DNA from: Luminiphilus syltensis NOR5-1B
GTDB lineage: Bacteria; Pseudomonadota; Gammaproteobacteria; Pseudomonadales; Halieaceae
Direction: 5' to 3'
Length of the DNA: 64,000 bases
Assembly (NCBI RefSeq): GCF_000158175.1
Contig: NZ_DS999411.1
Span: 2,277,784-2,341,783, forward strand
Below, piece after piece: positions 13,099 to 35,412 of the stretch (positions are counted from its first letter, which is position 1; each line of letters opens with the position of its first letter). A program made the translations under genes and the position numbers. Below the pieces are notes generated by a model, which was given only the letters and a program-made list of their open reading frames with translations, was not told where the DNA came from and did not search any database.

Positions 13099-13384
13099 GC
13101 GCCGCCGGTTTGTCCACAATACCTGTGGATATCTCAGTGGGTAATTTGTTTAAGTTAAGGGCAACCCGAGGCCGTACAGGAAATGTTACAAATTGGTTAA
13201 AAAGTGATCAATCAATAAAAAAATAATAAAAACAGATGCTTACGGGTGTTATGTAAGGCCACTTATTTTAAAATGCAACTAAGTAGGGCTTCGGAAGTTG
13301 ATATCACGGGCGTGTGCATAAAAGTATCTATAGCGTCAACACCCTTCGCACAAAAAATCCTTAATTTTTTTTGGGGAATCGCCC
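13099..13384. other. AT-rich intergenic region with DnaA-box-like pair
   Basis: A 286-bp stretch without a gene. Two one-mismatch DnaA-box-like 9-mers face each other at 13110-13118 (TTGTCCACA) and 13124-13132 (TGTGGATAT). They are followed by a strongly AT-rich tract at about 13186-13236. No initiator gene is nearby, so an origin is not claimed. Confidence 0.4.
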
Positions 13385-13750
13385 TCAGGAGGTCCCCGGA
13401 CCCCGGTAAATGCACCCCGCATTGCAGGTTTCCTTGACTTCAATCTGAACCAGCCCCTCGAGGCGGGGTGCGATTTCTTCCCATAGCCACATCGCCAGGA
13501 CCTCGCTGGTCGGGTTTTCCAGTCCCGGGATCTCATTTAAAAAATAATGGTCCAGCCTATCGATAACAGGCGTCACCGCGGCTTTGATCTCGGCAAAGTC
13601 CATCAGCCAGCCCGTGTGCTCATCCACCTCGCCATCGATGGTCATACGCACCCAGAACGAATGGCCGTGTAAACGGGCACAGGGATGCCCCTCTGGTACG
13701 TTAGGGAGCTGATGAGCGGCTTCGAAACGAAAGTCTTTGTACAGTTCCAC
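13385..13750 (-). CDS. queD: 6-carboxy-5,6,7,8-tetrahydropterin synthase
   Basis: Second step of queuosine precursor synthesis, turning dihydroneopterin triphosphate into 6-carboxytetrahydropterin. The 121-residue length is typical. Zinc ligands H13 (FEAAHQL), H28 and H30 (LHGHSF) and the catalytic cysteine C24 ([10 protein letters not shown]) are all present, as is the later LDHYFLN segment. The ATG at 13750 starts the conserved [12 protein letters not shown] segment. Monocistronic by position, facing away from the tRNA pair. Identification is firm. Confidence 0.95.
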
Positions 13751-13839
13751 GAGGTTGATTCCCGCCTGGTCTTGTTGAATGATTCGGCGCGGAGTCTACC
13801 GGTTTTTTCGCCCTCTGAGAAAATATTGCGTGTTAACCG

Positions 13840-13867
13840 TTGACAGCGAAAGGGGCCTGCTTATAAT
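13840..13867 (+). promoter_or_regulatory. Near-consensus sigma-70 promoter for the tRNA pair
   Basis: TTGACA at 13840-13845 and TATAAT at 13862-13867, separated by 16 bp, lie 16 bp before the tRNA-Val gene. Both hexamers are exact consensus, as expected for a stable-RNA promoter. Confidence 0.85.
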
Positions 13868-13883
13868 GCGCGGCTCTGGTTTG

Positions 13884-13959
13884 GGGTGATTAGCTCAGCT
13901 GGGAGAGCATCTGCCTTACAAGCAGAGGGTCGGCGGTTCGATCCCGTCATCACCCACCA
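13884..13959 (+). tRNA. tRNA-Val (anticodon TAC)
   Basis: A 76-base cloverleaf with the 3' CCA encoded. Acceptor arms GGGTGAT and ATCACCC pair, the D-loop holds AGCTCAGCTGGGAGAGC, the anticodon loop is CTTACAA (TAC) between CTGCC-type arms, and the T-arm carries GGTTCGATCCC. It is almost identical to enterobacterial tRNA-Val(TAC) as I recall it. Confidence 0.97.
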
Positions 13960-14034
13960 ACTCTCTTAACACGCTTTCAAGCGTGCAGGAGTTGGCCAAA
14001 ACAGCAGCAACCAGCGCGCACGCGCTGTCTACCT

Positions 14035-14111
14035 GGAGCGGTAGTTCAGTTGGTTAGAATACCGGCCTGTCACGCCGGGGGTCGCGGGTTCGAGTCCCGT
14101 CCGCTCCGCCA
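14035..14111 (+). tRNA. tRNA-Asp (anticodon GTC)
   Basis: A 77-base cloverleaf with encoded CCA. Acceptor arms GGAGCGG and CCGCTCC pair, the D-loop is typical, the anticodon loop CTGTCAC gives GTC, and the T-arm is GGGTTCGAGTCCC. It lies 75 bp behind tRNA-Val and is probably on the same transcript. Its 3' end borders the transposase remnants, an arrangement common at island insertion sites. Confidence 0.97.
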
Positions 14112-14182
14112 TTACCTTCAACACCGCATAGACGCTGGCTCGCCCGGCTCTATCCAATTAATGGGGCATGGACCGGTTTTCA

Positions 14183-14278
14183 CTAAACTCGGTTAATGAT
14201 GCCATCCCGCCCGCAATGGGCCGAGACGCGCAGTGAGTAGTTCTCAAAATTCCTGAATCCGTAAGCGCTACCGGTCAT
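14183..14278 (-). pseudogene. C-terminal remnant of an ISL3-family transposase
   Basis: The leftward reading contains AYGFRNFENYSLRV followed by AHCGRDG and ends in INRV plus stop. This resembles the last 30 residues of ISL3-type (IS204/IS1001/IS1165) transposases. Nothing of the catalytic DDE region remains. It abuts an IS3 remnant on the other strand, so the spot has been hit by at least two elements. Family assignment rests on one short motif. Confidence 0.5.
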
Positions 14279-14571
14279 CATCTCCATACTGAGCCGACGC
14301 GGCAACTGCCGCGACGCCGCCGTTGCCGAGCGCTTTTTCCAGTTACTCCAACGTGAACGCATCAAGCGACATATTTACTCAGCAAGAAACCACCCGCACC
14401 GACATCGTCGACTACATCATAATGTCCTACAACAGCAAACGACGGCAGGGTTTCAATAATCCGTTGTCGCCCCTGCAGTATGGGAATGAATTGTCAGCGG
14501 CGGGTAAGTGGCTAGAGGACAGGGACCGATTCAGACCTGTCCAAAGTATCAGGCAAAGTGTAAGCAAGTAG
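14274..14571 (+). pseudogene. Frameshifted 3' remnant of an IS3-family transposase
   Basis: In one frame (from about 14289) the reading SRRGNCRDAAVAERFFQLLQ continues as RERIKRHIYSARN. In the other frame it continues with TRTDIVDYIIMSYNSKRRQG and NNPLSPLQYGNEL up to the stop at 14571. Together these match the C-terminal third of the IS3/OrfB integrase core, including the DNAVAE-type glutamate, split by a frameshift near 14385. The two catalytic aspartates upstream are absent. No terminal inverted repeats were recognised. It is a dead element. Confidence 0.75.
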
Positions 14572-14599: not shown

Positions 14600-17311
14600 T
14601 TGAATGTAGGAACGACCCGATGGTTTATAGGATATGCCGCTTTGCGAGTCCCCTTTACGAAAGACCCCGGCGGGGCAGATCCCTGGGCCCAGGACGCTAC
14701 TGAATTAGCGTCGGCATTGCGGGTAGATTTGAGCCTCGGCCTTACGGCCATTGAGGTTCTGCGTCGACGAGAGATTTTTGGCCCGAATCTTTTGCGAGAT
14801 ACGAAGCAGCGATCAGCCCTGGCGATCCTGTGGGCTCAATTTCGCAGTATTGTCGTATTACTCCTCGTTGCAGCGGCGATGCTCGCTGGTGCGATGGGCG
14901 AGGGCGTTGAAGCCATCGCAATCGCTGTGGTGATCGCTATTAACACGCTTATCGGCTTTGTTACGGAATGGCGGGCTACCCGCTCCATGGAGGCGCTTCG
15001 CCATTTCTCTCGGACGGAGACGACAGTGCTGCGGGATGGTCACTCGACCATGACACCAGCAGCAGATCTGGTGCCAGGCGACGTGGTGCTCCTTGAGGCC
15101 GGGGACGCGGTTCCTGCAGACCTGCGCCTGGTCGAGGCATCCAAACTGCAGACGAACGAAGCACCGCTCACCGGTGAATCCCTCCCTGTAAGTAAACACA
15201 TCGACCCGATTCGGGAAACGACAACACTCCTGGATCGTGCGAACCTAGCTTACCGTGGTACGACCATAACCTGCGGGTCCGGCAAAGGTGTGGTCGTTGC
15301 TATCGGCATGGAAACAGAATTTGGCCGTATCTTTGCCCAGGTCAGCACCGCGCGACCGCAGCAAACACCGCTGGAGAAGCGACTCGACGCCCTGGGTAAA
15401 CGCCTCGCCTGGGCCGCGCTCGCGATGGCGGTGCTGTTGGCGATAGCCGGGGTTCTCGCCGGTCGTGACCTGTCATTGGCTATCGAGGTTGCAATCGCCC
15501 TATGTGTTGCGGCGATTCCGGAAGGCCTTCCCGTCGTTGCCACGATTGCGCTTGGCCGTGGTATGTGGCGTATGGCGAGACGCAATGCCCTGATCACCCG
15601 TCTGTCGGCGGTCGAAACGCTCGGTGCAACGAGCCTAATCCTGACTGACAAGACGGGAACACTCACTGAAAACCGAATGACAGTCACGATGATGCTGCTC
15701 GCGGACGCAGACGTCGACTGCAGAAAAGCCGAAAGCCTCGCGGACAATGAACTGACGCTGTGTCTACTTCGTGTCGCGGCGCTTTGCGTAAATGCATCTC
15801 TAGGCGATAGCGAGGATGAAGCTGGGCAGGATACCGGGGACCCGACAGAGCTGGCATTATTGGCCGCAGCGGCACAAGCGGGTCTGAATCGTCCCACGCT
15901 GCTTGCCGATATGCCGGAGTTACGCGAAGAGCCCTTCGACGCTGAAAATAAGCGGATGGCGACTGTACATCAGGGTGGCGATGGGGTTTTCGCCGCCGTC
16001 AAAGGAGCTGCAGAAAACCTGCTGCCATTGTGCAATAACCAATTGACCCGCAATGGGGAAAGCGCGCTGGATGACGCTGGTCGGAAGCAGTGGCTAGCAC
16101 GAGCCGAAGCGCTGGCTGCGCAGGGCCTGCGTACGTTGGCAATCGCACAGCGTCGACTCGACAACGCTGCCGACTCGCCTTACGGAAGTCTCCAGCTCCT
16201 GGGTATCGTTGGCATGGAAGACCCGGCGCGCAAAGGGGTCAGGGAGGCTATTGACCAATGCCATAAGGCAGGCCTCGACGTGGTAATGGTAACGGGCGAC
16301 CATCCTGCCACCGCGAGAAGTATCGCTCTTGACACAGGTATTCTCCAAAACGATGAGACTGCTAATGTCATTCTTGGGAGTGAACTTCAGCAGCTATTTG
16401 CGGCCGGCTCCAGTAGCACCTTGCTAAGTTCACGGGTTTTTGCGCGTGTCACACCCGACCAAAAGCTGCGCCTTATAGACTTCCATCAGAACGAAGGTCG
16501 GGTGGTCGCTATGACGGGAGATGGGGTCAATGACGCGCCAGCCCTGAAAAAAGCAGATATTGGTATTGCCATGGGGATACGCGGTACCGCTGTTGCCAGA
16601 GAGGCTGCGGCGATGGTCCTGCAGGATGATGAGTTCGGGACCATTGTTGCTGCCATTCAACAGGGTCGGGCAATCTTTGGAAATATTCGTAAATTTGTTC
16701 TCTATCTTCTCTCCTGTAACATCAGCGAAGTTTTCGTGGTTGTTATCGCCACGCTCCTCGGCGCGCCATTACCGCTTCTCCCGCTGCAGATTCTGTTTCT
16801 CAATCTGGTCACTGATGTCTTCCCTGCGTTGGCGTTGGGTGTTGGTGGCGGCGCGCCGGGCGCCATGTCGGAGCCGCCCAGACCCGCAAACGAGCGCATA
16901 CTCATGCGCGAGCACTGGCTGTTGATTGCTCTTTACGGGGGCCTGATTTCGGCGTCCGTACTCGGCTCCATGACTGTGGCGATACTGTTTCTGGGTTATA
17001 GCGGGGAGCGGGCAGTTACCGTTTCATTCCTGACCCTCTCGCTTGGCCAGATGTGGCATGTGCTCAATATGCGCGATGACCCTGCCCGGTGGTTGAGCAA
17101 TGAAATCACTGGGAATCCGTGGATCTGGATGGCTCTGCTGCTCTGTCTGATCCTTCTCGGCGCGGCAGTGTACCTGCCGCCACTGGCATCGGTACTGTCA
17201 CTCAGCCATCCCGGTGCTGTTGGCTGGTTGTTGGCCGTTGTGGCCAGTTTTGTCCCGGTTGTCTTCGGCCCGCCAATCAAGAGGCTTGTCCGTATACGAT
17301 CTGAAGATTGA
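14600..17311 (+). CDS. P2-type cation-transporting ATPase (Ca2+-ATPase-like, CtpF-like)
   Basis: Integral-membrane P-type ATPase of about 903 residues. Actuator motif LTGESLP lies near residue 190, the phosphorylated aspartate is D350 in DKTGTLT, and the hinge motif TGDGVNDAPALKKADIG begins near 639. M4 has CVAAIPEGLP, M5 has SCNISE and M6 has NLVTDVFPALALG, close to the PEGL, NxxE and NLVTD ion-site motifs of Ca2+ pumps. Calcium or a similar divalent cation is therefore likely, although the M6 aspartate context differs from SERCA. The only upstream in-frame start is TTG at 14600; a start further in is possible. It lies between the IS remnants and the hydrogenase operon. Confidence 0.88.
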   Translation: MNVGTTRWFIGYAALRVPFTKDPGGADPWAQDATELASALRVDLSLGLTAIEVLRRREIFGPNLLRDTKQRSALAILWAQFRSIVVLLLVAAAMLAGAMGEGVEAIAIAVVIAINTLIGFVTEWRATRSMEALRHFSRTETTVLRDGHSTMTPAADLVPGDVVLLEAGDAVPADLRLVEASKLQTNEAPLTGESLPVSKHIDPIRETTTLLDRANLAYRGTTITCGSGKGVVVAIGMETEFGRIFAQVSTARPQQTPLEKRLDALGKRLAWAALAMAVLLAIAGVLAGRDLSLAIEVAIALCVAAIPEGLPVVATIALGRGMWRMARRNALITRLSAVETLGATSLILTDKTGTLTENRMTVTMMLLADADVDCRKAESLADNELTLCLLRVAALCVNASLGDSEDEAGQDTGDPTELALLAAAAQAGLNRPTLLADMPELREEPFDAENKRMATVHQGGDGVFAAVKGAAENLLPLCNNQLTRNGESALDDAGRKQWLARAEALAAQGLRTLAIAQRRLDNAADSPYGSLQLLGIVGMEDPARKGVREAIDQCHKAGLDVVMVTGDHPATARSIALDTGILQNDETANVILGSELQQLFAAGSSSTLLSSRVFARVTPDQKLRLIDFHQNEGRVVAMTGDGVNDAPALKKADIGIAMGIRGTAVAREAAAMVLQDDEFGTIVAAIQQGRAIFGNIRKFVLYLLSCNISEVFVVVIATLLGAPLPLLPLQILFLNLVTDVFPALALGVGGGAPGAMSEPPRPANERILMREHWLLIALYGGLISASVLGSMTVAILFLGYSGERAVTVSFLTLSLGQMWHVLNMRDDPARWLSNEITGNPWIWMALLLCLILLGAAVYLPPLASVLSLSHPGAVGWLLAVVASFVPVVFGPPIKRLVRIRSED

Positions 17312-17952
17312 TATGCGAGTCCATTTGCCGGCGAGCAACTAGCTTCGTCTCTGTTCAGGGTTCTGATGATCTCTGTGATTCATGGAATTTTAGTTGTTCA
17401 ATCAAATACGTCACCACGTTCTGGGTAGCTGAATGCTGCTCGTGCGCGTTTCTTTGACTGACGTAGCCAGCGCCCGCTTCGACCGTTTCACGCACCTTGT
17501 TCAGGTCGTATTCCTGACCCGGATTCCGTGTTGTGTTCTCGAGCACAATCGTCTGTCGACGACCAGTTCCTATACATACTGCAAAAGAGTGAATCAATCG
17601 TGAGCCCCGGCACAGCGTTACTCGAGGTGGATGATGCTTCAAGCTTCGAAGTTGTCGTACATAGACTGTCGTTCGCTGCCGTCAGCGTAACAGCAGGGCA
17701 GTGAGTGATGATTGATCAATAGGGCGGGGACAAAATCCTGAATGCCAGAGCAAGAGCTGTCGAACTGTTTGCGTTTACCAATCTCTCTTCTGCGCATCCT
17801 CTAAAAGGGGATGTGGTGCCCCTTGGCTCGTGCGGCTGATTTACGTCTGTGATCTGATTGCTGTATCTGCGGTAGGGTTAGGTGTTGCTTAAATACATTT
17901 AGCCCACTGCGTCCTAGACTCATTAGTGGTAAAACGGCAATAGGAGGTATTG
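17312..17952. other. Upstream region of hydrogenase operon, with one doubtful ORF
   Basis: A 641-bp stretch. A leftward 95-codon reading frame at 17355-17642 shows no recognisable family and no good Shine-Dalgarno, so it is not called as a gene. Two inverted repeats are seen: ATTGATCAAT at 17711-17720 and the interrupted repeat at 17805-17824, listed separately. AGGAGG just before 17953 is the ribosome-binding site of hyhB. The operon promoter must be here but could not be pinpointed. Confidence 0.45.
17805..17824. promoter_or_regulatory. Interrupted palindrome AAGGGG-N8-CCCCTT upstream of hyhB
   Basis: Perfect 6-bp arms around 8 bp, about 130 bp before the hyhB start. Size and symmetry suit an activator or repressor dimer site. 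The inner bases do not match the DosR or FNR consensus, so the regulator is open. Confidence 0.3.
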
Positions 17953-19092
17953 ATGAAAACGGACGCTATAGCGCAGATCGGTGAGAGCGGAGTTCTGGCG
18001 CGCAGCGACTTTGCTAAGCTCCTAAGCACGCTGCAAGATGAGGGCTACGCTGTAGTCGGGCCTACGATCCGGGGCGGTGCCGTAGTGTACGCAGAGATCG
18101 ACGACGAGAGCGAGCTTCCCATTGGCTGGACTGATGAGCAGGAGGCGGGAACCTATCGGCTTAAACGGTCCGGAGTAGCACTATTTGGCTATGTCGCGGG
18201 TGCCCAGTCCTGGAAGCCCAATCTCTTTCAACCGCAGCGGACCCTCTGGACGGCCAGGGGAAATGCTGACGGTTTTGTCATCGAAGCGGTAGCAGAAGAC
18301 ATGCCCCGTCAGGCATTCCTCGGAGTACGCGCCTGTGAACTCAAGGCTATTTCGATTCAGGATCACGTCCTTGCGGATCCCGCTAACCCAGAATCAGATT
18401 ACGTGGCACGTCGGCAAGAGAGTTTTATTGTCGCCGTCAACTGCGCCAAGGCGGGGGCTACCTGTTTTTGTGTATCCATGGACGCGGGGCCGGGTGTGGA
18501 GGCCGGCTACGACCTCGCGCTGACCGAGCTTATCGATGATGTGCGGCATGATTTTCTAGTCGAGATCGGCAGCCCGCGCGGTGCATCGATTGCGGCCCGG
18601 CTCCCCCTTACAACGGCTTCTGGCGGCGACATCGACGCCGCGGAGGCTGTTGTCAGCGAGACGGCTGCAGGAATGGGAAGGACATTGAACACCGTTGGTC
18701 TCAAGTCGCTGCTGCAGGACAATCCGGATCATGCGCAGTGGGATGATGTAGCGGCGCGCTGCCTGTCATGCGGCAACTGTACCTTTGCCTGTCCGACGTG
18801 TTTTTGTCATAGCACCGAAGATGTGACTACGATTGACGGGGAGGTGGCGGAGCGTCAGCAACGCTGGGATTCCTGCTTCAGTCTGGACTTTTCCTACATT
18901 CGCGGCGGCGCAGTTCGTCCCGGTGTCGCCTCGCGCTACAGGCAGTGGATGACCCACAAGCTGGCAAACTGGTTTGATCAGTTTGGCGAAAGCGGCTGTG
19001 TTGGCTGTGGACGCTGCATCACCTGGTGTCCGTCCGGGATCGACATCACAGCTGAGGCTGCGGCGATTCGGGATAGTCTCAGAGAGGATTGA
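17953..19092 (+). CDS. hyhB: Group 3b [NiFe] hydrogenase beta subunit (4Fe-4S electron-transfer protein)
   Basis: Iron-sulfur subunit of the cytoplasmic NAD(P)-linked (sulf)hydrogenase, passing electrons between the hydrogenase dimer and the flavin subunit. Two ferredoxin-type clusters are visible near the C-terminus: [14 protein letters not shown] starting at residue 270 and [12 protein letters not shown] at about 348. The N-terminal two thirds resembles the anaerobic sulfite reductase subunit A / HyhB family, with cysteine-containing segments such as RACELKAI and CFCVSMD. The ATG at 17953 follows AGGAGG. First gene of an operon with hyhG, hyhS and hyhL, all overlapping or nearly so. Confidence 0.9.
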
Positions 19093-19097
19093 CGATC

Positions 19098-19568
19098 ATG
19101 GCGAAAAAGGACCTCGAAGAAATTATTGCCCAGGAGCCATTTTTCCGCGGCCTGAATGCTGATTTTTGTAAGACTATCGCGCGCTGCGGTAAGCATGTGC
19201 GATTTGACAAGGGCCAGATAATCTATCGACAGGGTGATCCGGCAGATACCTTCTACGTCATACGCCACGGGTATGTCGCCCTGGAGTTTCCTGGCGGCGG
19301 CAGGGCCATGGTCCATCAAACTCTCCACGACGGTGATCTCGCGAATGCAGAGTGGCTGGTTGCACCGTATCGCTGCCTCTGGGATGCGCGCGCCGTTGCC
19401 GCAACGGTTGCCATTGCTCTCGATGCCGCCTGCCTGCGCGGCAAATGCGACGATGATCACGATCTGGGCTACGAGCTCATGAAGCGATTTGTCCCCCTGG
19501 TTGTCGAGCGACTCAGTCATGCGAAGTTGCAGGCACTGGACGTTTACGGGGAGGGGAGCACGACGTGA
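19098..19568 (+). CDS. Cyclic-nucleotide-binding-domain protein without DNA-binding domain
   Basis: About 156 residues forming a single Crp-like cNMP-binding beta-barrel: [42 protein letters not shown] and a long helix at the end. The usual RxA/S phosphate-binding signature is poorly conserved ([14 protein letters not shown]), so nucleotide binding is uncertain. There is no helix-turn-helix, so it cannot act as a classical Crp regulator. It sits inside the hydrogenase operon between hyhB and hyhG, ending in a TGATG overlap with hyhG, which suggests a structural or regulatory role in the complex. An in-frame TTG at 19089 is an alternative start. Confidence 0.82.
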
Positions 19569-20413
19569 TGGCGAAATCCCCATTGCCCGCTGACCCAATG
19601 TTGCCGCGACGGTTTCGCGTCGTCGAAAATACCCGCGAGACCGTCGATACCTATACATTTTCCATTGCCGCCATGGATGGAGTTAGCGAGTTTTCGTTCG
19701 CGCCGGGGCAGTTCAACATGCTCTATCTGTTTGGGTATGGCGAAGTGCCCATCAGCATTTGTGGCGACCCAGCGCAACCTGGACTGCTGGTGCACACGGT
19801 GCGTGCCACTGGTAGCGTGACGCAGGCCTTTGCATCGCTCAAGGCGGGTGACATGATCGGCGTGAGAGGGCCGTTCGGAAGCTCCTGGCCTGTCGCCGCG
19901 GCCGAGGGCGGCGATGTGCTTATTGTGGCGGGTGGACTCGGCCTCGCACCACTGCGCTCGGCAATCTACCGCCTGCTAGCCCGGGAAGGCCGCTACCGCA
20001 GAATCGTGATTCTTTACGGCGCACGCAGTCCAGACACAATTCTTTTCGCGGAAGAGCTCAAACGATGGAGGGATCAGCCTGGCATCTCCTGCGATATCAC
20101 TGTCGACTACGCCGATGCCAACTGGCAGGGTCGCGTCGGCGTCATCACCCAACTCATAGCCCAGGCCGAGTTTGATCCACAGCAGGTTGTTGCTTTGATC
20201 TGCGGGCCGGAAATCATGATGCGCTTCAGCGTTGCGGCGCTGAAGTCGCTGGGAGTCAGTGACGCGAGCATCCATGTTTCTCTTGAGCGCAGTATGAAAT
20301 GCGCGTTGGGACACTGCGGTCATTGCCAGTTTGGTCCGCTGTTCGTGTGTAAGGACGGACCGGTGCTACCTTACGATCAGATAGCTACTTTACTAGGGGT
20401 CGCAGAACTGTGA
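19568..20413 (+). CDS. hyhG: Group 3b hydrogenase gamma subunit (FAD/NAD(P)-binding reductase)
   Basis: Diaphorase subunit of 281 residues linking H2 oxidation or evolution to NAD(P). It has a ferredoxin-reductase fold: flavin-binding segment [20 protein letters not shown], pyridine-nucleotide loop [23 protein letters not shown], and a C-terminal 2Fe-2S cluster in [15 protein letters not shown] plus FVCKDGPV. These are the hallmarks of HyhG/PyrK-like proteins. The ATG at 19568 overlaps the preceding stop (TGATG). Translationally coupled to both neighbours. Confidence 0.93.
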
Positions 20414-21204
20414 AGAAGGCGAACGAATCGAGGCCAAAACTCGCTGTGTGGAAGTTTGCGTCCTGCGATGGCTGCCAGCTGTCGATTCTCGATCTTGAGG
20501 ACGAATTGCTGGCCCTTGCCAGCGAAATCGAGATTGCCTATTTTCTCGAGGCGACGCAAACGGCGTCAGACGGACCCTACGATCTGTCTCTGGTCGAGGG
20601 CTCTATCACGACTGCACAGGACCTCGAGCGAATCAAGACGGTGCGGCGCCAGTCGAAAGCGCTTGTAACGATTGGTGCCTGCGCCACCTCCGGCGGGATT
20701 CAGGCGTTGCGGAATTTTCGCGATGTGAATGACTTTCTTGCGGTGGTCTACGCGGACCCTGGTTACATCGACACGCTAGCGACATCGACGCCTATTGCGG
20801 ACCATGTCGCCGTCGACTTCGAGCTGCGGGGCTGTCCGGTTAACAAATATCAGCTCCTCGAGGTGGTGACGGCCTTTGTTTTTGGGCGTAAACCGATGAT
20901 CGCCGCGCACAGTGTCTGTATGGAGTGCAAAATGCGCGGCAATGTTTGTGTCACCGTTGCGCAGGGGATTCCCTGTCTAGGTCCGGTAACACAGGCGGGT
21001 TGCGGTGCAATCTGCCCCGCCTACGACCGGGGCTGCTACGGCTGCTACGGCCCCCAGGACACGCCTGCTATGTCCGCTATGACAGACGTACTGGATGCGC
21101 ACGGCATGAGTCGGCGGGATATCCAGCGCATCCTGAGTACCTTCAACGCAAACGCTACACCTTTTCTTGAGGAGAGCCAGCGCCATGGCACGGCGGACGA
21201 TTAA
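20410..21204 (+). CDS. hyhS: Group 3b [NiFe] hydrogenase small (delta) subunit
   Basis: Electron-relay subunit of 264 residues, related to the 20-kDa NADH dehydrogenase subunit, pairing with HyhL. The proximal cluster begins with CDGC (C19 and C22) and continues with cysteines in [10 protein letters not shown] and LRGCPVN. Further cysteines for the medial and distal clusters are in [13 protein letters not shown] and [19 protein letters not shown]. There is no Tat signal, so the enzyme is cytoplasmic. The GTG start overlaps the hyhG stop (GTGA). Confidence 0.94.
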
Positions 21205-22483
21205 GGTTGAGCAAATCGCCCGTGTGGAGGGCGAAGGTGCGCTGCATGTCGACGTTAATGACGGTAGGGTTGAGCGGGTGGAGCTGAATATTTTTGAGCC
21301 ACCGCGGTTCTTTGAAGCATTTTTACGCGGACGGGATTTCAGCGAGGCCCCGGACATCACGGCGAGGATTTGCGGCATATGTCCAGTCGCCTATCAGATG
21401 AGTGCTGTCCACGCCATGGAAGCCGCCTGCGGCATCAGCGTTGGCGGCGCGCTTCGTGAGCTCCGACGTCTCCTTTACTGTGGAGAATGGATAGAGAGTC
21501 ACGCGCTGCATGTCTACCTGCTTCATGCACCGGATTTCCTGGGTTACCCGGGAGCCGTTGAGATGGCACAAGAGCACGGTTCGCTGCTGCAACAGGGACT
21601 GCGGCTGAAGAAGGCGGGAAACGCGATCATCTCTATACTCGGGGGTCGTGAGGTGCATCCGATCAATGTGCGCCTTGGCGGTTTCTATCGCGCGCCACGG
21701 CGCTCAGAGTTGATGGCGCTCCGGGACGAACTCAGCTGGGGCCGGGACGCTGCTTTCGATGCCGTTCGCTGGGCGGGTGAGCTTGTGTTTCCCGAGTTTG
21801 AGCGAGATTACGAATTTGTCGCCTTGCGACACCCAACCGAATACCCGATGAATGAGGGTCGGATCGTATCGAGTCGGGGCGTGGACATCGATTACTATGA
21901 GTTTTCGCGAGTTTTCGAAGAGTTTCAGGTAGCCCATTCGACCGCCTTGCATAGCCGCATGAGGGGGCAGGGCGCTTATCTGGTGGGGCCACTGGCCCGC
22001 TATAGCCTGAACTTTGACCGACTGCCCGGCAGTGTACAGTCTGCAGCGCTGACCGCGGGCCTCGATCAAGAGTGCCGCAACCCTTTTAAGAGCATCATCG
22101 TGCGTGCCGTTGAAATACTGTTTGCCTTTGAGGAAGCACTGCGCATCATCGACTGCTATGAGCAGCCGGAGGAATCTGCGGTACCGGTCACGCCGCGAGC
22201 GTCCGTGGGTGAATGGGCCACGGAGGCGCCGCGCGGTCTGCTCTATCACCGTTATGAGACTTCATCCAATGGCAGTATCCTCGAGGCGAAGATTATTCCA
22301 CCCACTTCGCAGAACCAGCCCAGTATCGAGGATGATTTGCGTACTGTTGTCGAGGGAAATATAGCCCTTGAAGATGACGAACTGCGCTCTCGATGTGAGC
22401 GCTCAATCCGTAACTACGATCCGTGCATCTCTTGTGCGACGCATTTTTTGAAGCTTAATATCAACCGTAGGGGAGGTGTGTGA
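21185..22483 (+). CDS. hyhL: Group 3b [NiFe] hydrogenase large (alpha) subunit
   Basis: Catalytic subunit of 432 residues holding the Ni-Fe(CN)2CO centre. The four nickel-site cysteines are all present: C63 and C66 in [11 protein letters not shown], and C414 and C417 in DPCISCATH. The P-A-Y after RICGICP is typical of group 3 rather than uptake (group 1) enzymes. Twelve residues follow the final histidine (H420), the tail that a maturation protease removes after nickel insertion. The ATG at 21185 overlaps hyhS by 20 bp. Next comes the protease gene with a GTGA overlap. Confidence 0.95.
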
Positions 22484-22944
22484 ACTCGCGACGATTGGTT
22501 ATCGGCATTGGCAATTCGGACCGCGCCGATGACGGCGCAGGGCCAGCAGCCGCTCGAGCCCTCATGCTGGATTCGCCCGTGGACACATCGATTATTGAGT
22601 CTTCCGGGGATCCTGGCAGTCTCATCGAGCAGTTAACGGGCAGCGACGCGGTCTTTTTTGTGGATGCCTGTGCCAGTGGCGCGGCAGCTGGGACTGTGCA
22701 TCGTTTTGCCGTCAGTGAGGAACCGCTGCCAGAAATCTTTGGAGCTGTCTCTACACACGGCCTGGGTCTGGGCACGGCCCTTGAACTAGCAAGAATGATG
22801 GGTGTGCTGCCAGAAACGGTCGTCGTCTTTGGCATCGAGGCCGAATCCTTCGAGACCGGGCTGCCTCTTTCACCCGCCGTCGCGAGCGCCACCGAGGTGG
22901 TAGCAATTCGCATCCGTGACGAGCTTGCCCAACTTTCAGCCTGA
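22480..22944 (+). CDS. Hydrogenase maturation protease
   Basis: Endopeptidase of the HybD/HycI fold, 154 residues, expected to cleave the HyhL C-terminal tail after H420. The N-terminal [14 protein letters not shown] carries the acidic nickel-sensing residue in the GxGNxxxxDDGxG motif. A second acidic site is in [10 protein letters not shown], and [11 protein letters not shown] contains the usual histidine. The GTG start overlaps the hyhL stop (GTGA), indicating tight coupling with its substrate. Confidence 0.92.
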
Positions 22945-22954
22945 CGAGGACGCC

Positions 22955-23218
22955 ATGCACGAAGCTTCGCTCATGAATGATCTTATGGAAAAGATAGCCC
23001 GTATTGCGAGGCAGGAGGCCGTGGCTCGCGTTACCGGTGTAGACGTGTGGCTCGGAGCTCTTTCGCACATGTCAGCAGACCATTTCCGGCAGCATTTTGA
23101 AGAATCTTGTAAGGGTTCTATCGCCGAGGGTGCGGATCTGCATATAGAAGTTTCCACGGATATCAATCATCCCGATGCGCAAGCTATCGCGCTGAAGAGT
23201 ATTGAAGCGGATGACTGA
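22955..23218 (+). CDS. hypA: Short HypA-like protein lacking the zinc domain
   Basis: Nickel metallochaperone relative, 87 residues against about 113 for normal HypA. The start MHEASLMNDLMEKI keeps the nickel-binding MHE motif, and VWLGALSHMSADHFRQHFEE matches the core domain. The zinc-binding loop with two CxxC motifs is missing: the chain runs from IEVSTDINHPDAQ directly to LKSIEADD. This is a clean deletion of the zinc domain rather than a frameshift. The ATG at 22955 begins the conserved motif and follows GAGGA. hypF starts immediately after the stop. Confidence 0.85.
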   Translation: MHEASLMNDLMEKIARIARQEAVARVTGVDVWLGALSHMSADHFRQHFEESCKGSIAEGADLHIEVSTDINHPDAQAIALKSIEADD

Positions 23219-25534
23219 ATGACTGAGCGAGCGCGAAGCCTGCCGAGCGATCGGGTGCGGCTGCGCTTCGAAATTGGTGGCGCGGTGCAGGGCGTCGGCT
23301 TCCGTCCGTTTGTCTTTCGAACAGCCAGGCATTTTGGCGTGACCGGTCATGTCGCCAATACCGGCGACGGTGTCATTGTTGAGGCGGAGGGCGCGCCCTG
23401 CGCACTCGAGGCGTTCGCGCAGGCCCTACAGGGCAGTGCTCCGGCTCCTGCGCAGTTGCGCTCTTTCAGATGTCAGAGCATCGCACTCCGGGGAGACAGC
23501 GATTTTGTGATTGGCGACAGTACGGTCGGTGTGCAGCGAGACGCCGTCCTGCTCCCCGATCTCGCGACGTGCAGGCTGTGCCTTGAGGATATTTTTGATC
23601 CGGAAAATCGCCGCTATCTCTACCCGTTCACTAACTGCACGGCGTGTGGCCCGCGTTACTCCATCCTCTGCGAGCTGCCTTACGACCGTGCCAACACGAC
23701 CATGTCGGGATTCTCTATGTGCGCGGAGTGTGCGCGGGAATACGCTGACCCGCAGGATCGACGTTTTCACGCGGAGCCTATCGCCTGCGACACGTGCGGG
23801 CCACAGATTGCACTGTGGGACCGCCACGGCGATAGGATTAAAGTTCGCGGTGAGGCTCTGGACGGGGCAGCGGCCATTATTCGCAGCGGCGGTATTGCCG
23901 CAGTTAAGGGGCTGGGTGGATTCCATCTTCTTACTGATGCCCGCAACGCGGAGGCCGTTAGAACTCTGCGGTCTCGAAAGAGGCGGCCCAATAAACCCTT
24001 TGCTCTTATGGTTCCCTCGCTCGAAGTGGCAGAGCACCTGTGCTTCGTCAATGCAGATGAGAAATCCCTGCTTGCCTCCAGCGAGGCTCCCATCGTCCTG
24101 CTGCGTCAGCGGGCCGTCACTGGCGTGACCGAGGACGTCGCGCCAGGGCTGTGTGAACTTGGGCTTATGCTGCCCTATACGCCGCTGCATCATCTCTTGC
24201 TGCACAGGCTCGGCTTTCCCATCGTCGTGACAAGCGCGAACCTGAGCGGGGAACCCATCGTTGCGAACGAGGACGAAGCGCTTGCTCGGCTTGGTCATCT
24301 GGCAGATGTTTTTCTGATTCATGATCGACCCATCGCGCAGGCCAGCGAAGACTCTGTTATGCGAGTGATACTCGAGGCTCCGCAAGCCATTCGCTGTGGG
24401 CGCGGGCGTGCACCACTCGCGCTACCAGTCGATTCGTTGGGACTTGGAAATCACCTGTCGGTGCTGGCGCTGGGCGGCCATTTCAAAACGGCGGCGACAT
24501 TACTCATTAATGATAAGGCGACGGTCGGTCAGCACATCGGTGATCTTTCCACGCTCGCAGCCGAGCATACGCTTGCTGAAGCGGCGGGAACACTGGAGGC
24601 ATTGCGCGGTAGCAAAGCTGCTGTCATCGCCTGCGATCAGCATCCTGACTATGCGACCACGCGCCTTGCCGAACGTATGGGTAGACCTGTCGTACCGGTA
24701 CAGCACCATGTCGCCCATGTCGTTTCGGTCATGGCAGAACACGGGCTGAGCGGCCCGGTTCTCGGCATTGCCTGGGACGGCACAGGTTTGGGCCCCGACG
24801 GCACGATCTGGGGTGGGGAGTTTCTCCAGGTGCGCAATGACAGTTGGATGCGTAAGGCCCATCTGCGACCCTTCCGTCTGCCGGGCGCAGAGACTGCAAT
24901 TCGGGAGCCGCGCCGTTCGGCGGTTGGTATGCTTTACGAGGCGTTTGGCGCTTGCGGAGTCGTTGAGAACACGCATCTTGCCTGTATTGCGGCCTTTTCT
25001 GAGCCCGAGCGCGAGATCCTCTGCCAGATGCTCGAACGCGGTATCCAGTCGCCGTGGACAAGTAGTGCGGGTCGCCTGTTTGATGCATTCGCGGCCATAC
25101 TGGGCCTGACGCCTGTTAGCAGTCACGAGGGTGAGGCACCGATGCGCCTGGAAGCGCTGGCGGACGCGTCAAGTTGTGCACCCTATCCCTTCGATATCAA
25201 CGCGCCACAAGGTTGCCCGCTGGTGATTGACTGGTTTCCCATGGTGCATGCTGTGCTTCAGGACCTGGCCGCCGACGTCAGGAATAGGACGATTGCGGGG
25301 CGCATTCACGGAACATTCGCAGCTATGATGTTAGCGATAGTGGAAAGCACTGACGTCGGCACCATTGCGCTGACCGGGGGCTGCTTTCAGAACCGCTTGT
25401 TGACCGAGCTTGCTGCACGGCAGATCGAACAAGCGGGCAGACAGGTCGTGCTTGCCCGTGCCCTGCCACCTCACGATGGTGGTCTGTCACTCGGTCAGGC
25501 GGTATGGGCGCGGCGGGCCGCGCAGAAGGAGTAA
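23219..25534 (+). CDS. hypF: Carbamoyltransferase HypF
   Basis: Makes the carbamoyl adduct that becomes the cyanide ligands of the Ni-Fe centre, transferring it to HypE. The 771-residue length is usual. Domains in order: acylphosphatase-like (GAVQGVGFRPFVFRTA), a zinc-finger region with paired CxxC motifs (CRLC, CTACGPRYS, CAEC, CDTCGP), a YrdC-like domain (AVKGLGGFHLLTDA, KRRPNKPFALM) and a Kae1-like domain (VQHHVAHVVSVMAEH, GIAWDGTGLGPDG, LTGGCFQN). The ATG directly follows the hypA stop. All expected domains are intact. Confidence 0.96.
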   Translation: MTERARSLPSDRVRLRFEIGGAVQGVGFRPFVFRTARHFGVTGHVANTGDGVIVEAEGAPCALEAFAQALQGSAPAPAQLRSFRCQSIALRGDSDFVIGDSTVGVQRDAVLLPDLATCRLCLEDIFDPENRRYLYPFTNCTACGPRYSILCELPYDRANTTMSGFSMCAECAREYADPQDRRFHAEPIACDTCGPQIALWDRHGDRIKVRGEALDGAAAIIRSGGIAAVKGLGGFHLLTDARNAEAVRTLRSRKRRPNKPFALMVPSLEVAEHLCFVNADEKSLLASSEAPIVLLRQRAVTGVTEDVAPGLCELGLMLPYTPLHHLLLHRLGFPIVVTSANLSGEPIVANEDEALARLGHLADVFLIHDRPIAQASEDSVMRVILEAPQAIRCGRGRAPLALPVDSLGLGNHLSVLALGGHFKTAATLLINDKATVGQHIGDLSTLAAEHTLAEAAGTLEALRGSKAAVIACDQHPDYATTRLAERMGRPVVPVQHHVAHVVSVMAEHGLSGPVLGIAWDGTGLGPDGTIWGGEFLQVRNDSWMRKAHLRPFRLPGAETAIREPRRSAVGMLYEAFGACGVVENTHLACIAAFSEPEREILCQMLERGIQSPWTSSAGRLFDAFAAILGLTPVSSHEGEAPMRLEALADASSCAPYPFDINAPQGCPLVIDWFPMVHAVLQDLAADVRNRTIAGRIHGTFAAMMLAIVESTDVGTIALTGGCFQNRLLTELAARQIEQAGRQVVLARALPPHDGGLSLGQAVWARRAAQKE

Positions 25535-25539
25535 GGCTC

Positions 25540-25782
25540 ATGTGTCTGGCAATTCCAGGCTGTATTCTTTCCACGACGGGAGATGACTTCTCGCGATCGG
25601 CGCGGGTCGATTTCGGTGGTGTGATTAGAGAAGTCAACCTCGCGTTCACGCCGGAGGCCCACATTGGCGACTATATTCTCGTTCACGTCGGAATCGCCAT
25701 CGCGACCATTGATGAGGAAGAAGCCGCCCGCGTTCTTGCCGCACTGGCATCGCTCAATGAGCTGGCAGCGGAGTCGTCATGA
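25540..25782 (+). CDS. hypC: Hydrogenase assembly chaperone HypC
   Basis: Small chaperone of 80 residues that carries the Fe(CN)2CO unit with HypD and docks on the large subunit. The essential N-terminal cysteine is present (MCLAIPG), and the family segments [13 protein letters not shown] and [16 protein letters not shown] follow. The ATG at 25540 lies 5 bp behind the hypF stop, with AAGGAG overlapping the end of hypF. Its last four bases overlap hypD. Confidence 0.95.
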
Positions 25783-26897
25783 AACATGTGGACGAGTACC
25801 GGGCCGCCGAGACCGTCGCCAGTCTGGCCGATGCCATCGCGCGGGCGACGACGCAGCCCTGGATCATCATGGAGATTTGCGGGGGGCAAACCCACGCGAT
25901 TATGCGCTACGGACTCGATCAGATTCTGCCGAAAGAAATCACGCTCATACACGGACCCGGGTGTCCGGTGTGCGTAACCCCTGACGCTTATATCGACAAG
26001 GCGCTCGAAATCGCGGCGACGCCCGGCGTCATTTTCTGTTCTTTCGGCGATATGCTACGCGTTCCTGGCTCGCAAGGAGACCTGCTGGGTGTCAAGGCTC
26101 GCGGAGGCGATGTGCGCATTGTCTATTCGCCTCTGGATGCGGTCGAGATTGCGCGCAGCAATCCCAGTCGCGAGGTGGTGTTCTTCGCGATTGGTTTCGA
26201 GACCACAGCGCCCGCCAACGCAATGGCCGCGTATACGGCCAAACGCGAGGGGCTATGCAATTTCTCCCTACTGGTTTCGCAGGTTCTGGTACCTCCGGCC
26301 ATGGAGGCGCTGCTGTCGGCTCCCGACACGCGCGTGCAGGGATTTCTTGCGGCAGGGCATGTTTGTACGGTAATGGGGACAGAAGCCTATGGCCCCATCG
26401 CCATGCGTTTCGATTTACCCATCGTGGTTACTGGCTTTGAGCCGGTCGATATTCTCGCCGGTGTTCTCGCCTGTGTGCGCGCGCTTGAAGAAGGACTTCA
26501 TGACGTTCTCAATATGTACGGGCGTACCGTAAAGTCTCAGGGAAATGCGGCGGCTCGCGCGCTGATTGACGAGGTTTTTGAGGTGACGGAGCGTGAATGG
26601 CGCGGTCTGGGTGTTTTACCGGCAAGCGGCCTTGCACTCCGCTCAACCTATGCAGCGTTCGATGCGGAAGCGCGATTTGGTCCGGCCCGGGATATCCGCG
26701 CGGCACCGTCGCCCTGTATCAGTGGCGAAATCCTGCGCGGTGTTTGTTCTCCACTCGAGTGCGCGGCGTTTGGCGCGTCCTGCACGCCAGACCATCCGCT
26801 CGGCGTTACCATGGTCTCGTCGGAAGGGGCTTGCGCGGCCTATTATCGCTATCGTGACCCGACGGATGAGGTCGGTGTGGTATTCGTACATGAATGA
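25779..26897 (+). CDS. hypD: Hydrogenase formation protein HypD
   Basis: Iron-sulfur scaffold for assembly of the Fe(CN)2CO group, 372 residues. [28 protein letters not shown] and [12 protein letters not shown] are the three diagnostic HypD motifs. The C-terminal 4Fe-4S cysteines lie in [23 protein letters not shown] (described here by its cysteine pattern C-C-C-C). The ATG overlaps hypC (ATGA). Confidence 0.95.
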
Positions 26898-27933
26898 TTC
26901 CAAGGACCTCAACTGCCCCGTAGCCGCGATCGAAACCGAGGTCATTCAGCTCGCCCATGGCGGCGGTGGCCGTCTTATGCATTCACTGCTTGAGACGGTG
27001 ATCCTTTCCGCCTTTGAAAATCCAGCTCCCAACGAGTGCCATGACGGCGCGATCTTCGAGGTGGGTGGTGAGCGCCTTGCTTTCACGACCGACTCCTACG
27101 TCGTCAAGCCGCTGTTCTTTCCCGGTGGTGACATCGGCAGCCTTGCGGTAAACGGGACCGTGAACGATCTTGCCATGTGTGGTGCCCAGCCACTGTATCT
27201 CAGCGCCGCCTTTATCATCGAGGAAGGTTTTCCGATGGCGGAATTGCGCCAGGTGGTAGCCTCCATGGAGACCGCGGCCAGACAATCAGGGGTGTATCTG
27301 GTTACCGGCGATACCAAGGTCGTGGATCGCGGCAACGGCGACGGGCTGTTCGTCAATACGGCAGGCATAGGGGCAGTGCGCGCGCGGACACCGGTAAACC
27401 CGGGTGCCGTCGAAGCAGGTGATGTAATCATTCTCAGTGGTGACCTGGGGCGCCATGGTATTGCCATCATGGCGGCCCGTGAGCACCTGGCGTTCGAGAC
27501 ATCGGTCGCCAGCGACTGCGCGCCACTGTGGGAGCCGGTGAAGGCTCTTATCGAGGCCGGTATCGAACTTCACTGCCTCCGCGACCTGACACGTGGCGGC
27601 CTCGCTTCGGCGCTGATCGAAATCGCAGAAACGGCGGCCTGCGCGCTCACCATCGAGGAGACCGCGATTCCTGTTTTGCCGGAGGTGCAAGCCGCCTGTG
27701 ACCTGCTGGGGCTCGACGCCCTTTACGTGGCGAATGAGGGCCGCTTCGCCGCCTTTGTGCCGGCCGCACAGGCAGCACAGACCGTCGAGCTGCTGGGCGC
27801 CGCCGGCCTTGGGGCGGTCGCTATCGGCCAGGTTACGTCGGGAGCAGGCGGCACCGTCGCTATAGCGGGTCCCTATGGCGCGACGCGGCGGCTGACCATG
27901 TTCAGCGGCGAGCAACTGCCCCGAATCTGCTGA
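26890..27933 (+). CDS. hypE: Carbamoyl-phosphate/cyano carrier HypE
   Basis: AIR-synthase-like enzyme of 347 residues that dehydrates the C-terminal thiocarbamate to thiocyanate. [32 protein letters not shown] and [11 protein letters not shown] are typical ATP-binding segments. The chain ends in PRIC, so the required terminal cysteine is present. The ATG at 26890 overlaps the hypD end by 8 bp; the longer open frame upstream of it is unlikely to be translated. Last gene of the operon, convergent with ppsA. Confidence 0.95.
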
Positions 27934-28000
27934 ACCAGGTTCGGCAAAAGAACCGCTGGGGCCTCGACTGCCGACGTCTATTTATAACTTATAGCAAGAC

Positions 28001-30424
28001 TCAGACTACGCGCCCCAGGCGTGCTTCGACCTCGAGTACCTGGCGGGTGGTCGCCAGGATGGTGTCTGGATTGAGACTTATGGAATCTATGCCAAGACCC
28101 ACCAAAAACTCGACCACCTCCGGGTAGTCCGAGGGCGCCTGACCGCACAGGCCGGAGTGTCTGTTATTGCGGCGCGCCCCTTCTACCGCAAGTCTGATCA
28201 TCTGCATCACTCCCGGGTCGCGTTCATCAAAATCGAAGGCGACGAGTTCCGAATCACGATCAACACCCAGGGTGAGCTGGGTGAGATCGTTGGAGCCAAT
28301 GGAGAACCCATCGAACAAGTTGGCGAACTCGTCGATGAGGATGACGTTGTTGGGTATCTCACACATCACGTAGATTTCCAGCCCGTTTTCACCGCGCACA
28401 AGACCGTGGCTGGCCATGGCTTCGAGCGTCTTTTTACCTTCCTCTACGCGACGACAGAACGGGATCATCAGGATAACGTTGGTCAGACCCATCTCATCAC
28501 GCACGCGCTTCATAGCAGCGCATTCCAGGCCAAAGCCTTCGGCGTAAGAGGGGTGACTGTAACGGGCGGCACCGCGAAAACCGATCATGGGGTTGGCTTC
28601 GGTGGGCTCAAAAAACTGCCCCCCTAACAGAGCGGAGTATTCGTTGCTTTTGAAGTCGGACATGCGGACCACGCAGGGCTCGGGATAAACCGAAGCGGCG
28701 AGGGTGGCCACCCCCTCGGAGAGGGTCTTTACAAAGAAGTCGGCCGGATCCGCATAGGCCTCGCTCATGGCAGCGATCGCCTGGCGTGTCTTCTGGTCGA
28801 CTTTCTCTGGATGCCTGAAGGCCATAGGGTGCGCCTTGATATATTCGCTGATAATGAACTCCAATCGCGCCAGGCCGATGCCATCCACGGGGAGAGAGCT
28901 CAGGTTGAATGCCTGGTCAGGGTTGCCCAGATTCATCATGATTTTCGTTCTGGGGCGCTTCAGATCGCTAAGATCGTCCGTTTCAATATCGAAGTCCAGA
29001 ATACCCTCGTAGATATTACCGACCTCGCCGTCGGCGCAGCTGACGGTGATTTCCTGCCCATCTTCGAGCGCATCGAAGCCAGCGCCCACACCAACGACTG
29101 CGGGAATACCGAGTTCACGCGCGACAATGGCCGCATGACAGGTGCGACCACCGCCGTTGGTAACAATCGCAGCGGCAATCTTCATAACCGGTTCCCAGTC
29201 CGGCGTCGTTGAGCTGGTGACCAACACATCGCCGGTTTGGAACTCGCTGAGGCGCTGGATATCGTTGACGATGCGCACCTGTCCGGCGCCGATGCGCGCC
29301 CCGACCGCCTGCCCCTGAGCGAGAATGCTGGATGTTTCCCTGAGGTGATAGACCTCAAGCAGGTTGCCCCGCTTCTGCGACTCCACCGTTTCCGGCCGTG
29401 CCTGCAACATGTAGAGATGACCATCAAGCCCATCTTTGCCCCACTCCATATCCATCGGCCTGTGCATATTGGCCTTGTTGGAAAAGTGGGCCTCCACTTT
29501 GATGGCATACTCCGCAAGCACCATGACATCTTCGTCCGAGATGCAGAATTGAGTTTGTTCTTCGGCGCTGGTGTCAATGTAGCGGGTGTATTCGGTGGCG
29601 ATGTTGGCAGTATTGAGCGTATCGGCAAAAATCATTTTCTGCTGTTTTTTGCCGAGCTTGCGTTTGAGGACGGATCGAGCGCCTTTTTCAAATGTAGGCT
29701 TATGGACATAGAAGCTGTCTGGATCGACCGATCCCTGTACGACGCTTTCCCCGAGACCGATCGCGGCGTTGATAAAAACGACGTCTTTGAAACCAGTTTC
29801 CGTATCCAGCGAGAACATCACACCGCTGGACCCGCTGTCGCTACGCACCATTTTCATGACGACTACGCACAGATAAACTTTCAGGTAGTCAAAGTTGTTA
29901 TCGTACTTGTAATGGATGGATCTATCGGTGAAGTTGGATACCAGGCAGCGCCGATAGGCATCCAGCAGGGCATCCTCTCCGCTTACATTCAGGTAGGTTT
30001 CGTTCTGGCCGGCAAAGGAGGCCTCGGGGGAATCCTCCGCTGTTGCTGATGACCGCACGGCCAGCGATACATCATCGCCATACTCCGCCTTTAGTATGGC
30101 ATATTGCGCAAGAATCGCAGATTCCAGATCTTCGGGAAGCGTGCAGGCTGAGACGATTGCTCTCGCAGCGGCGCCGCATTTCTGCAGGTCCTTTATATTG
30201 TCGGGATCAAGACCGTCAAGGAGTGTCTGTAACTTGCCCCAGGCGCCGTTGGTATCCAGCACATGTCGATAGGCGTCCGCTGTCACGGCAAAGCCGTTCG
30301 GTATGCGCACGTTCTGTGCAGTCAGCTCCCGATACATCTCGCCGAGCGCCGCGTTCTTGCCACCGACTTGGCTGACATCGTCGATGTCAATATCTTCGAA
30401 CCAGCGGACGAACTTATTGGACAT
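28001..30424 (-). CDS. ppsA: Phosphoenolpyruvate synthase
   Basis: ATP-dependent conversion of pyruvate to PEP, 807 residues. N-terminal ATP-grasp domain (VGGKNAALGEMYREL, LAVRSSATAEDSPEASFAGQNETYL), the phosphohistidine domain with H430 in GGRTCHAAIVARELGIP, and a C-terminal PEP-binding TIM barrel with ICMP-type segments ending in SGLCGQAPSDYPE, whose cysteine is catalytic. The ATG at 30424 follows GGAG. The usual PpsR kinase/phosphatase gene is not adjacent. It converges on the hydrogenase operon across 67 bp, and gene partnerships known elsewhere suggest both belong to one island. Confidence 0.95.
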   Translation of the reverse strand: MSNKFVRWFEDIDIDDVSQVGGKNAALGEMYRELTAQNVRIPNGFAVTADAYRHVLDTNGAWGKLQTLLDGLDPDNIKDLQKCGAAARAIVSACTLPEDLESAILAQYAILKAEYGDDVSLAVRSSATAEDSPEASFAGQNETYLNVSGEDALLDAYRRCLVSNFTDRSIHYKYDNNFDYLKVYLCVVVMKMVRSDSGSSGVMFSLDTETGFKDVVFINAAIGLGESVVQGSVDPDSFYVHKPTFEKGARSVLKRKLGKKQQKMIFADTLNTANIATEYTRYIDTSAEEQTQFCISDEDVMVLAEYAIKVEAHFSNKANMHRPMDMEWGKDGLDGHLYMLQARPETVESQKRGNLLEVYHLRETSSILAQGQAVGARIGAGQVRIVNDIQRLSEFQTGDVLVTSSTTPDWEPVMKIAAAIVTNGGGRTCHAAIVARELGIPAVVGVGAGFDALEDGQEITVSCADGEVGNIYEGILDFDIETDDLSDLKRPRTKIMMNLGNPDQAFNLSSLPVDGIGLARLEFIISEYIKAHPMAFRHPEKVDQKTRQAIAAMSEAYADPADFFVKTLSEGVATLAASVYPEPCVVRMSDFKSNEYSALLGGQFFEPTEANPMIGFRGAARYSHPSYAEGFGLECAAMKRVRDEMGLTNVILMIPFCRRVEEGKKTLEAMASHGLVRGENGLEIYVMCEIPNNVILIDEFANLFDGFSIGSNDLTQLTLGVDRDSELVAFDFDERDPGVMQMIRLAVEGARRNNRHSGLCGQAPSDYPEVVEFLVGLGIDSISLNPDTILATTRQVLEVEARLGRVV

Positions 30425-30713
30425 AAGTGATCTCCATTCGGTGACGCGTTTTACCAAAGCCTGTCTGTCCAATACTCCACCCCGGGAAGGCAGAGAATGT
30501 TTACGATCAGTCCGCGCTACAGCCGGCGCAGATTTTGCCGACCCGCGCCACAGGCGTGAGCACGATTACTGATGCCTGAGACACCGGGTGTCAATCACTA
30601 ATCACACAAGCCTTGCGGCTATCAGGCTATAGATGTGATTCCTATAACCAGACAGGTTAATACCAGCGTATACATCGCACCTCAGCCTTACTACCTGCGC
30701 ATTCATTACGCTT
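30425..30713. other. Upstream region of ppsA with inverted repeat
   Basis: A 289-bp gene-free stretch. A 13-bp odd palindrome, GACACC-G-GGTGTC, is at 30580-30592, about 155 bp upstream of ppsA. AATCACA at 30600-30606 and TGTGATT at 30634-30640 form a wider inverted pair. Either could be regulatory; no promoter stands out. Confidence 0.35.
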
Positions 30714-35410: not shown

Positions 35411-35412
35411 GA

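Follow-up and report, generated by a model that had tools for sequence, protein, structure and literature searches.

A group 3b-type hydrogenase operon with a zinc-less HypA, between a P2-type ATPase and a PEP synthase, in Luminiphilus syltensis NOR5-1B

Luminiphilus syltensis NOR5-1B carries, at positions 14600-30472 of a 64,000-nucleotide stretch of contig NZ_DS999411.1 (the window, to which all positions refer unless a locus is named), a gene for a P2-type cation ATPase, an 11-gene NiFe hydrogenase operon and a convergent ppsA gene for phosphoenolpyruvate (PEP) synthase. The locus raises the question of whether these three parts belong together, and of how a hydrogenase whose operon has no hypB obtains its nickel. 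The new element in our answer is a HypA without a zinc ribbon, whose presence is tied to the absence of HypB. For the block as a whole, we consider it probable that it was gained horizontally as an accessory unit, in which a soluble NAD(P)H-linked hydrogenase with self-contained maturation, PpsA and the pump would serve in a low-oxygen or low-energy state.

Gene content of the block

An earlier sequence-only reading of this DNA had listed the P2-type ATPase, the hydrogenase operon with maturation genes and ppsA, and all of them are present close to where it placed them, as open frames with zero internal stops. The gene set is real as described here, in a host genome that consists of a single contig of 3,261,541 bases with a completeness of 99.83%. 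That reading had not listed HoxI, the M52 protease or the short HypA, nor had it remarked on the missing hypB and zinc ribbon.

The operon lies on the forward strand in the order hydB-hoxI-hydG-hydD-hydA-M52-hypA-hypF-hypC-hypD-hypE, with frames that overlap or abut throughout. Family models match the 4Fe-4S beta subunit HydB (17950-19092), the FAD/NAD(P)-binding gamma subunit HydG (19565-20413), the small delta subunit HydD (20410-21204) and the NiFe large subunit HydA, or alpha (21167-22483), as they do HypF (23219-25534), HypC (25504-25782), HypD (25779-26897) and HypE (about 26890-27933, with its start inferred inside the open frame 26593-27933). Between HydB and HydG sits a protein with a match to a cyclic-nucleotide-binding domain (19089-19568), and this HoxI-type protein is present in 72 of 80 relative loci; the name follows PMC12319191, where the protein of such a cluster is called HoxI and is suggested to bind NADP. 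The M52 hydrogenase maturation protease (22480-22944) scores above the TIGR00072 cut-off, and the short HypA of 87 residues (22955-23218) gives a partial match to the Pfam HypA model.

On its sequence, we classify the enzyme as a group 3b-type NiFe hydrogenase of the alpha-beta-gamma-delta sulfhydrogenase type. The best NCBIfam matches are sulfhydrogenase ShyA/HydA, HydB/ShyB, ShyD/HydD and the cytochrome-c3 hydrogenase gamma subunit, all of them below equivalog cut-offs that are archaeal. HydA aligns over its own length with solved cytosolic hydrogenases and with sulfhydrogenase I. It carries the motifs RICGIC and DPCISC, both invariant against two relatives, which we take to be the L1 and L2 CxxC nickel-ligand motifs of the large subunit.

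The pump gene (14600-17311, forward strand) precedes the operon, from which it is parted by a gap containing debris (17312-17949). Its product is nearest to Ca-transporting types, and its best model is of PMR1 type (614.5 bits, below the model cut-off of 798.3); the ion is probably Ca2+. On the reverse strand, convergent to the hyp genes, ppsA (28001-30472, likely start 30424) scores above the cut-offs of TIGR01418 and PRK06464. An Rfam scan of the window gave nothing beyond three tRNAs.

A short HypA and the absence of HypB

The operon copy is the single HypA of the host genome, and its Pfam match runs from position 1 to no further than position 66 of a model that has 112. When aligned with the short HypA proteins of 32 other loci (lengths 82-95), it has no CxxC and neither has any other of the 33 rows; partial HypA reads from two loci outside this alignment (L050 and L094) likewise lack it. 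The canonical N-terminal nickel site M-H-E is retained (M1 and H2 in 33/33 rows, E3 in 32/33), whereas the zinc ribbon with its two CxxC is not. Three further histidines are conserved, namely H38 (30/33), H43 (31/33) and H47 (32/33). None of these positions holds a histidine in the two solved HypA chains that we compared, and in a zinc-ribbon HypA from one of the short-HypA genomes (L215) they read A, A and C.

Some copies depart from this pattern. H38 is lost in L230 and L232, and on a Paraburkholderia plasmid (L231:19798-22490) the hyp run ends after HypA, with HypF-HypE absent within 18 kb and the HypA reading M-R-E, an Arg replacing the His at residue 2. A viral origin of the short HypA was considered and dropped, as none of 13 pattern matches was confirmed.

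The operon has no hypB, and the best match in a HypB search of the host genome (20.4 bits; cut-off 121.2) reads by eye as FtsY. Across genomes, HypB scores above the cut-off in only 3 of 34 with a short operon HypA vs 12 of 16 without an operon HypA (Fisher P 5e-6); the latter were chosen from 46 such loci, some of which may be cut by contig ends (L017, for one), and the metagenome-assembled genomes (MAGs) are incomplete. Among the 34, 20 lack any HypB match at E 1e-10 and 11 give matches of 45-78 bits, below the cut-off, which we presume to be UreG.

The natural loss of the zinc site is notable because the zinc site of Helicobacter pylori HypA is reported to be required for hydrogenase activity (PMC5557546). 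According to a 2025 review, maturation needs HypA-HypF, and nickel insertion cannot do without HypB-type GTPases (PMC12134894). We found no paper on a zinc-less HypA in the open-licence PMC literature, which is no proof of absence.

We put forward, with about an even chance of being right, the proposal that many group 3b operons across phyla carry a HypB-independent route of nickel insertion, in which a minimal HypA has lost the zinc ribbon, has gained a histidine site (H38, H43 and H47 beside M1-H2-E3) and would load the large subunit with nickel without a GTPase. Were this so, the operon would be self-contained and portable, and this would account for its function in genomes where HypB and UreG have always been lacking. 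A natural HypB-free set with a stripped HypA would reveal the smallest nickel-loading machinery, and it could make hydrogenase production in foreign hosts simpler. Two observations speak against the proposal: HypB is present in 3 of the 34 short-HypA genomes, and two matches in the host genome (24.0 and 21.7 bits) pass the Pfam cobW family cut-off.

It is possible, although we doubt it, that the gap left by HypB is only apparent and that an unrecognized NTPase, be it UreG, a CobW-type protein or a HypB of the archaeal MinD/Mrp type, helps to insert nickel. UreG has been proposed in this role for Nitrosococcus oceani AFC132 (PMC7285500), an archaeal HypB that uses ATP exists (PMC12134894), and the 11 genomes with matches below the cut-off fit such a helper. 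The 20 genomes with no match do not, and neither does the host genome, where no UreG or CobW candidate was found as a stand-in; the two cobW matches were rejected as nickel GTPases because by eye they read as Era and Ffh, and proteins of MinD/Mrp type were not searched for. With no HypB, UreG or CobW GTPase found in this genome, the UreG proposal cannot hold here. A somewhat less probable alternative is that the short HypA has given up its role as a nickel chaperone and acts in docking or assembly of HydA, with nickel entering unaided. The short form retains only what aligns with solved HypA chains (1-68), one of which was solved with a group 3b-type large subunit (5yxy, 5yy0), and PMC7285500 cites work in which nickel partly rescued hypB mutants. 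The near-invariance of M1, H2, E3 and the three histidines argues the other way, since it looks like a metal site that has been kept.

Linkage of the trio and origin of the block

The sequence-only reading had suggested that the hydrogenase, pump and ppsA families should co-occur if they formed a module. We find that their linkage is real and of low penetrance: it recurs across phyla, in a minority of group 3b loci. Our set comprised 80 of 578 candidate loci, so near records may be left out. Within at most 10 kb on each side, a P2 ATPase is found in 6/80 loci (L020, L049, L072, L078, L086 and L088), PpsA in 4/80 (L029, L048, L072 and L078) and both in 2/80 (L072 and L078). In the 43 of these loci whose contig is 30 kb or longer, genome-wide copy numbers predict 0.19 loci with the pump and 0.12 with PpsA, whereas 3 have the pump (Poisson P 0.001) and 2 have PpsA (P 0.007); these P values are optimistic because several loci are kin, including three from Microbulbifer.

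The tightest arrangement is in a Meiothermus MAG (L078), where ppsA, hydB-hydA, M52 and the pump form one same-strand run and the M52 and pump frames overlap by 4 bases. At 20-25 kb, the trio is also seen in Microbulbifer sediminum (L093; L216, L217) and in a Flammeovirgaceae MAG (L090; L218, L219). In genome G167, PpsA lies directly upstream of hydB, and in G039 the pump is 12.8 kb from HydA, with a universal stress protein (USP), a Crp-type regulator and a LuxR-type response regulator upstream. The other eight genomes whose HydA is of the closer type (G055, G343, G103, G276, G451, G093, G136 and G245) have neither pump nor PpsA within about 10 kb of it.

Of 13 plasmid records with HydA, USP occurs within 18 kb in 12, PpsA in 4 and a full P2 ATPase in 3. 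Those with all three are the near-identical Rhodococcus plasmids L229, L233 and L237, which also bear trehalose-phosphatase and wax ester synthases beside the hydrogenase, PpsA, P-type ATPase and USP. Two plasmids with group 3b operons are typed as conjugative. On a conjugative Pandoraea plasmid (L232:17971-19274), the HydA match comes in two pieces with no gene annotated, and it may be broken.

Further observations concern the partners themselves. PpsA falls into two types, the first sharing 57-73% identity with the window's copy and the second about 50%; both occur in several Gammaproteobacteria (the genomes of L029, L072, L076 and L093), with the first type near hyd in L029, L072 and L093. 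In G055, a pump (48-49%) and PpsA are no more than about 10 kb apart (L221, G055:C12:320086-330466), and the hydrogenase is on another contig. Upstream of the hydrogenase, Microbulbifer sediminum has, next to its pump, PpsA and USP genes, a further run of genes that by eye resembles an F-type ATP synthase (L216:30-6294).

As for its origin, the block is accessory in the genus. HydA has no match in 36/36 same-genus genomes; full-length PpsA is missing from 27/27, which give partial matches only (best 122 bits), and the pump is without a match in 26/27, the other (G010) having one at 36%. In an order-level sample, strong HydA matches occur only in G039 (56%) and G055 (48%). The nearest operon found among the 80 loci is in the alphaproteobacterium Parvibaculum sedimenti, with the same 11-gene order and 62-83% identity per protein (HydA 75%).

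At the left border are tRNA-Val (13884-13959) and tRNA-Asp (14035-14111), both on the forward strand. This left flank, with QueD, is conserved in 14/14 fetched relatives, which are those with the tRNA-Asp on longer contigs. The presence or absence of the block at this site was a check that the sequence-only reading proposed, and in these 14 relatives none of pump, HydA, PpsA and right-flank window genes was found in the 0.6-14.6 kb examined behind the tRNA. Relatives L179 and L180 have phage-type integrases there, and in L177 and L179 the end of tRNA-Asp is repeated over 71-72 bp at a distance of 4.5-6.3 kb; these integration features lie at L177:9448-9519 and 13974-14050 and at L179:7737-7807 and 12768-14140. 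The site therefore takes up elements and is an integration hotspot in the genus; since the block follows a tRNA-Asp that is used by integrases in relatives, horizontal gain is likely. Between tRNA-Asp and pump, a decayed transposase-like tail can be read by eye in translation (about 14240-14570, forward strand). Its nucleotide matches are confined to the window's own genome, with none in the other fetched loci. We presume that it resembles IS3 orfB.

Several points weigh against a gained, coherent module. Few group 3b loci have the trio, the enrichment is softened by kinship, and the Parvibaculum operon has neither pump nor ppsA within 10 kb. In GC and GC3 the block does not differ from its flanks, and we rejected a compositional island accordingly. 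In the window, no integrase and no tRNA-Asp attachment repeat was found, only repeats of chance size. On the right, an XdhA-like gene (33227-35587) was tried and rejected as the border, since relatives hold only 32-47% homologues and the block may extend further right. This molybdenum hydroxylase-like large subunit may itself belong to a longer accessory stretch. Of the suggestion of a mobile module, then, the accessory nature, the probable acquisition and the occurrence of group 3b operons on conjugative-typed plasmids stand, while neither an intact mobile element nor an attachment repeat was found; the block's absence from relatives likewise bears out the sequence-only reading, which had also looked to composition, where block and flanks do not differ.

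Two other histories have to be set against the horizontally gained block. In one, the hydrogenase-hyp operon alone was the transferred unit, and pump and ppsA came to the same tRNA hotspot separately, as accessory genes in their own right. That most relatives, the closest one included, have the operon without the other two suits this account, as do the debris-bearing gap before hydB and the opposite strand of ppsA; we nevertheless think it rather unlikely, because pump and PpsA stand near such operons above expectation, run together on one strand in the Meiothermus MAG and are co-located with the hydrogenase in Mycobacterium smegmatis and on the Rhodococcus plasmids. In the other, the ancestor of the genus already had the block and its other descendants lost it, as the block's ordinary composition and the cognate operon in the same-order genome G039 would allow. 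Its absence from all 36 same-genus genomes, and a closest relative that belongs to another class, make this quite improbable.

Low-oxygen function and known systems

In the horizontally gained block that we favour, HydBGDA and HoxI would form a soluble NAD(P)H-linked group 3b-type NiFe hydrogenase. HypCD, HypE and HypF would assemble the Fe(CN)2CO half, the zinc-less HypA would deliver nickel without HypB, and the M52 protease would trim HydA. The enzyme would most likely balance NAD(P)H under oxygen or carbon shortage, by release or uptake of H2, while PpsA would remake PEP from pyruvate and the P2 pump would remove a cation, probably Ca2+, to keep the ion balance.

The joint function of the trio is plausible and partly known from Mycobacterium. 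The M. smegmatis cluster msmeg_3926-3955 resembles the window in placing a PEP synthase and a cation P-type ATPase in one cluster with a group 3b-type hydrogenase and its M52 protease (PMC2799521, PMC11303327). At 0.6% oxygen, hydrogenase 3 is reported to rise 7.6- to 67-fold (PMC2799521), and the PEP synthase, a partner of which the sequence-only reading had been less certain, is MSMEG_3934 (PMC11303327). The part of the cluster that matches the trio is the part published as being without M. tuberculosis homologues. If the trio in Gammaproteobacteria, Bacteroidota, Deinococcota and Actinomycetota is one thing, part of the mycobacterial hypoxia response would be a widely shared, sometimes plasmid-borne, low-energy module.

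For low-oxygen expression in this strain, the evidence is less favourable. The rise of M. smegmatis PEP synthase at 0.6% oxygen, 23-fold, is given with p = 0.08 (PMC2799521). With few queries and no DevR query, USP, HSP20, FNR and FixJ gave no tblastn match in the window at E 1e-3. FNR-type boxes with at most 2 mismatches are absent upstream of the three transcription units, and we set aside FNR/Anr control of this copy for that reason; weak FNR boxes number 37 vs 20.0 expected across the window, with none at the island promoters. The suggested hypoxia link holds for the M. smegmatis cluster; in L. syltensis, with no regulator match in the window and no FNR box at these promoters, oxygen control is something that we infer.

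The M. smegmatis cluster differs from the window in several respects. It has DevR and universal stress proteins, of which no counterpart was found in the window; its hyp genes are elsewhere (msmeg_2721-2722 being hypB and hypA), whereas those of the window are inside the operon; and the genes listed for msmeg_3927-3931 include no hyp gene and no HoxI, which the window operon has. The soluble sulfhydrogenase I of Pyrococcus furiosus (PDB 9nez) and the cytosolic hydrogenase of Thermococcus (5yxy) have the same four subunits, alpha to delta, to which the operon here adds HoxI, with NCBIfam scores that stay under the archaeal equivalog cut-offs.

The maturation genes have been described before. 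The AFC132-type hypAFCDE group 3b cluster of Nitrosococcus oceani AFC132 and others, among which L. syltensis NOR5-1B is named, has the same hyp set without hypB as the window operon, and its hypB absence and probable horizontal gain were already pointed out (PMC7285500). The section of that paper on the AFC132-type cluster makes no mention of a lost zinc ribbon, extra histidines, the pump or PpsA, and its UreG proposal is inapplicable to the host genome. With canonical HypA (PF01155; PDB 3a43, 2kdx and 6g81) the short form has in common the N-terminal domain with M1-H2-E3; it differs in having a short linker in place of the zinc ribbon, in its three additional conserved histidines and in its co-occurrence with the lack of HypB.

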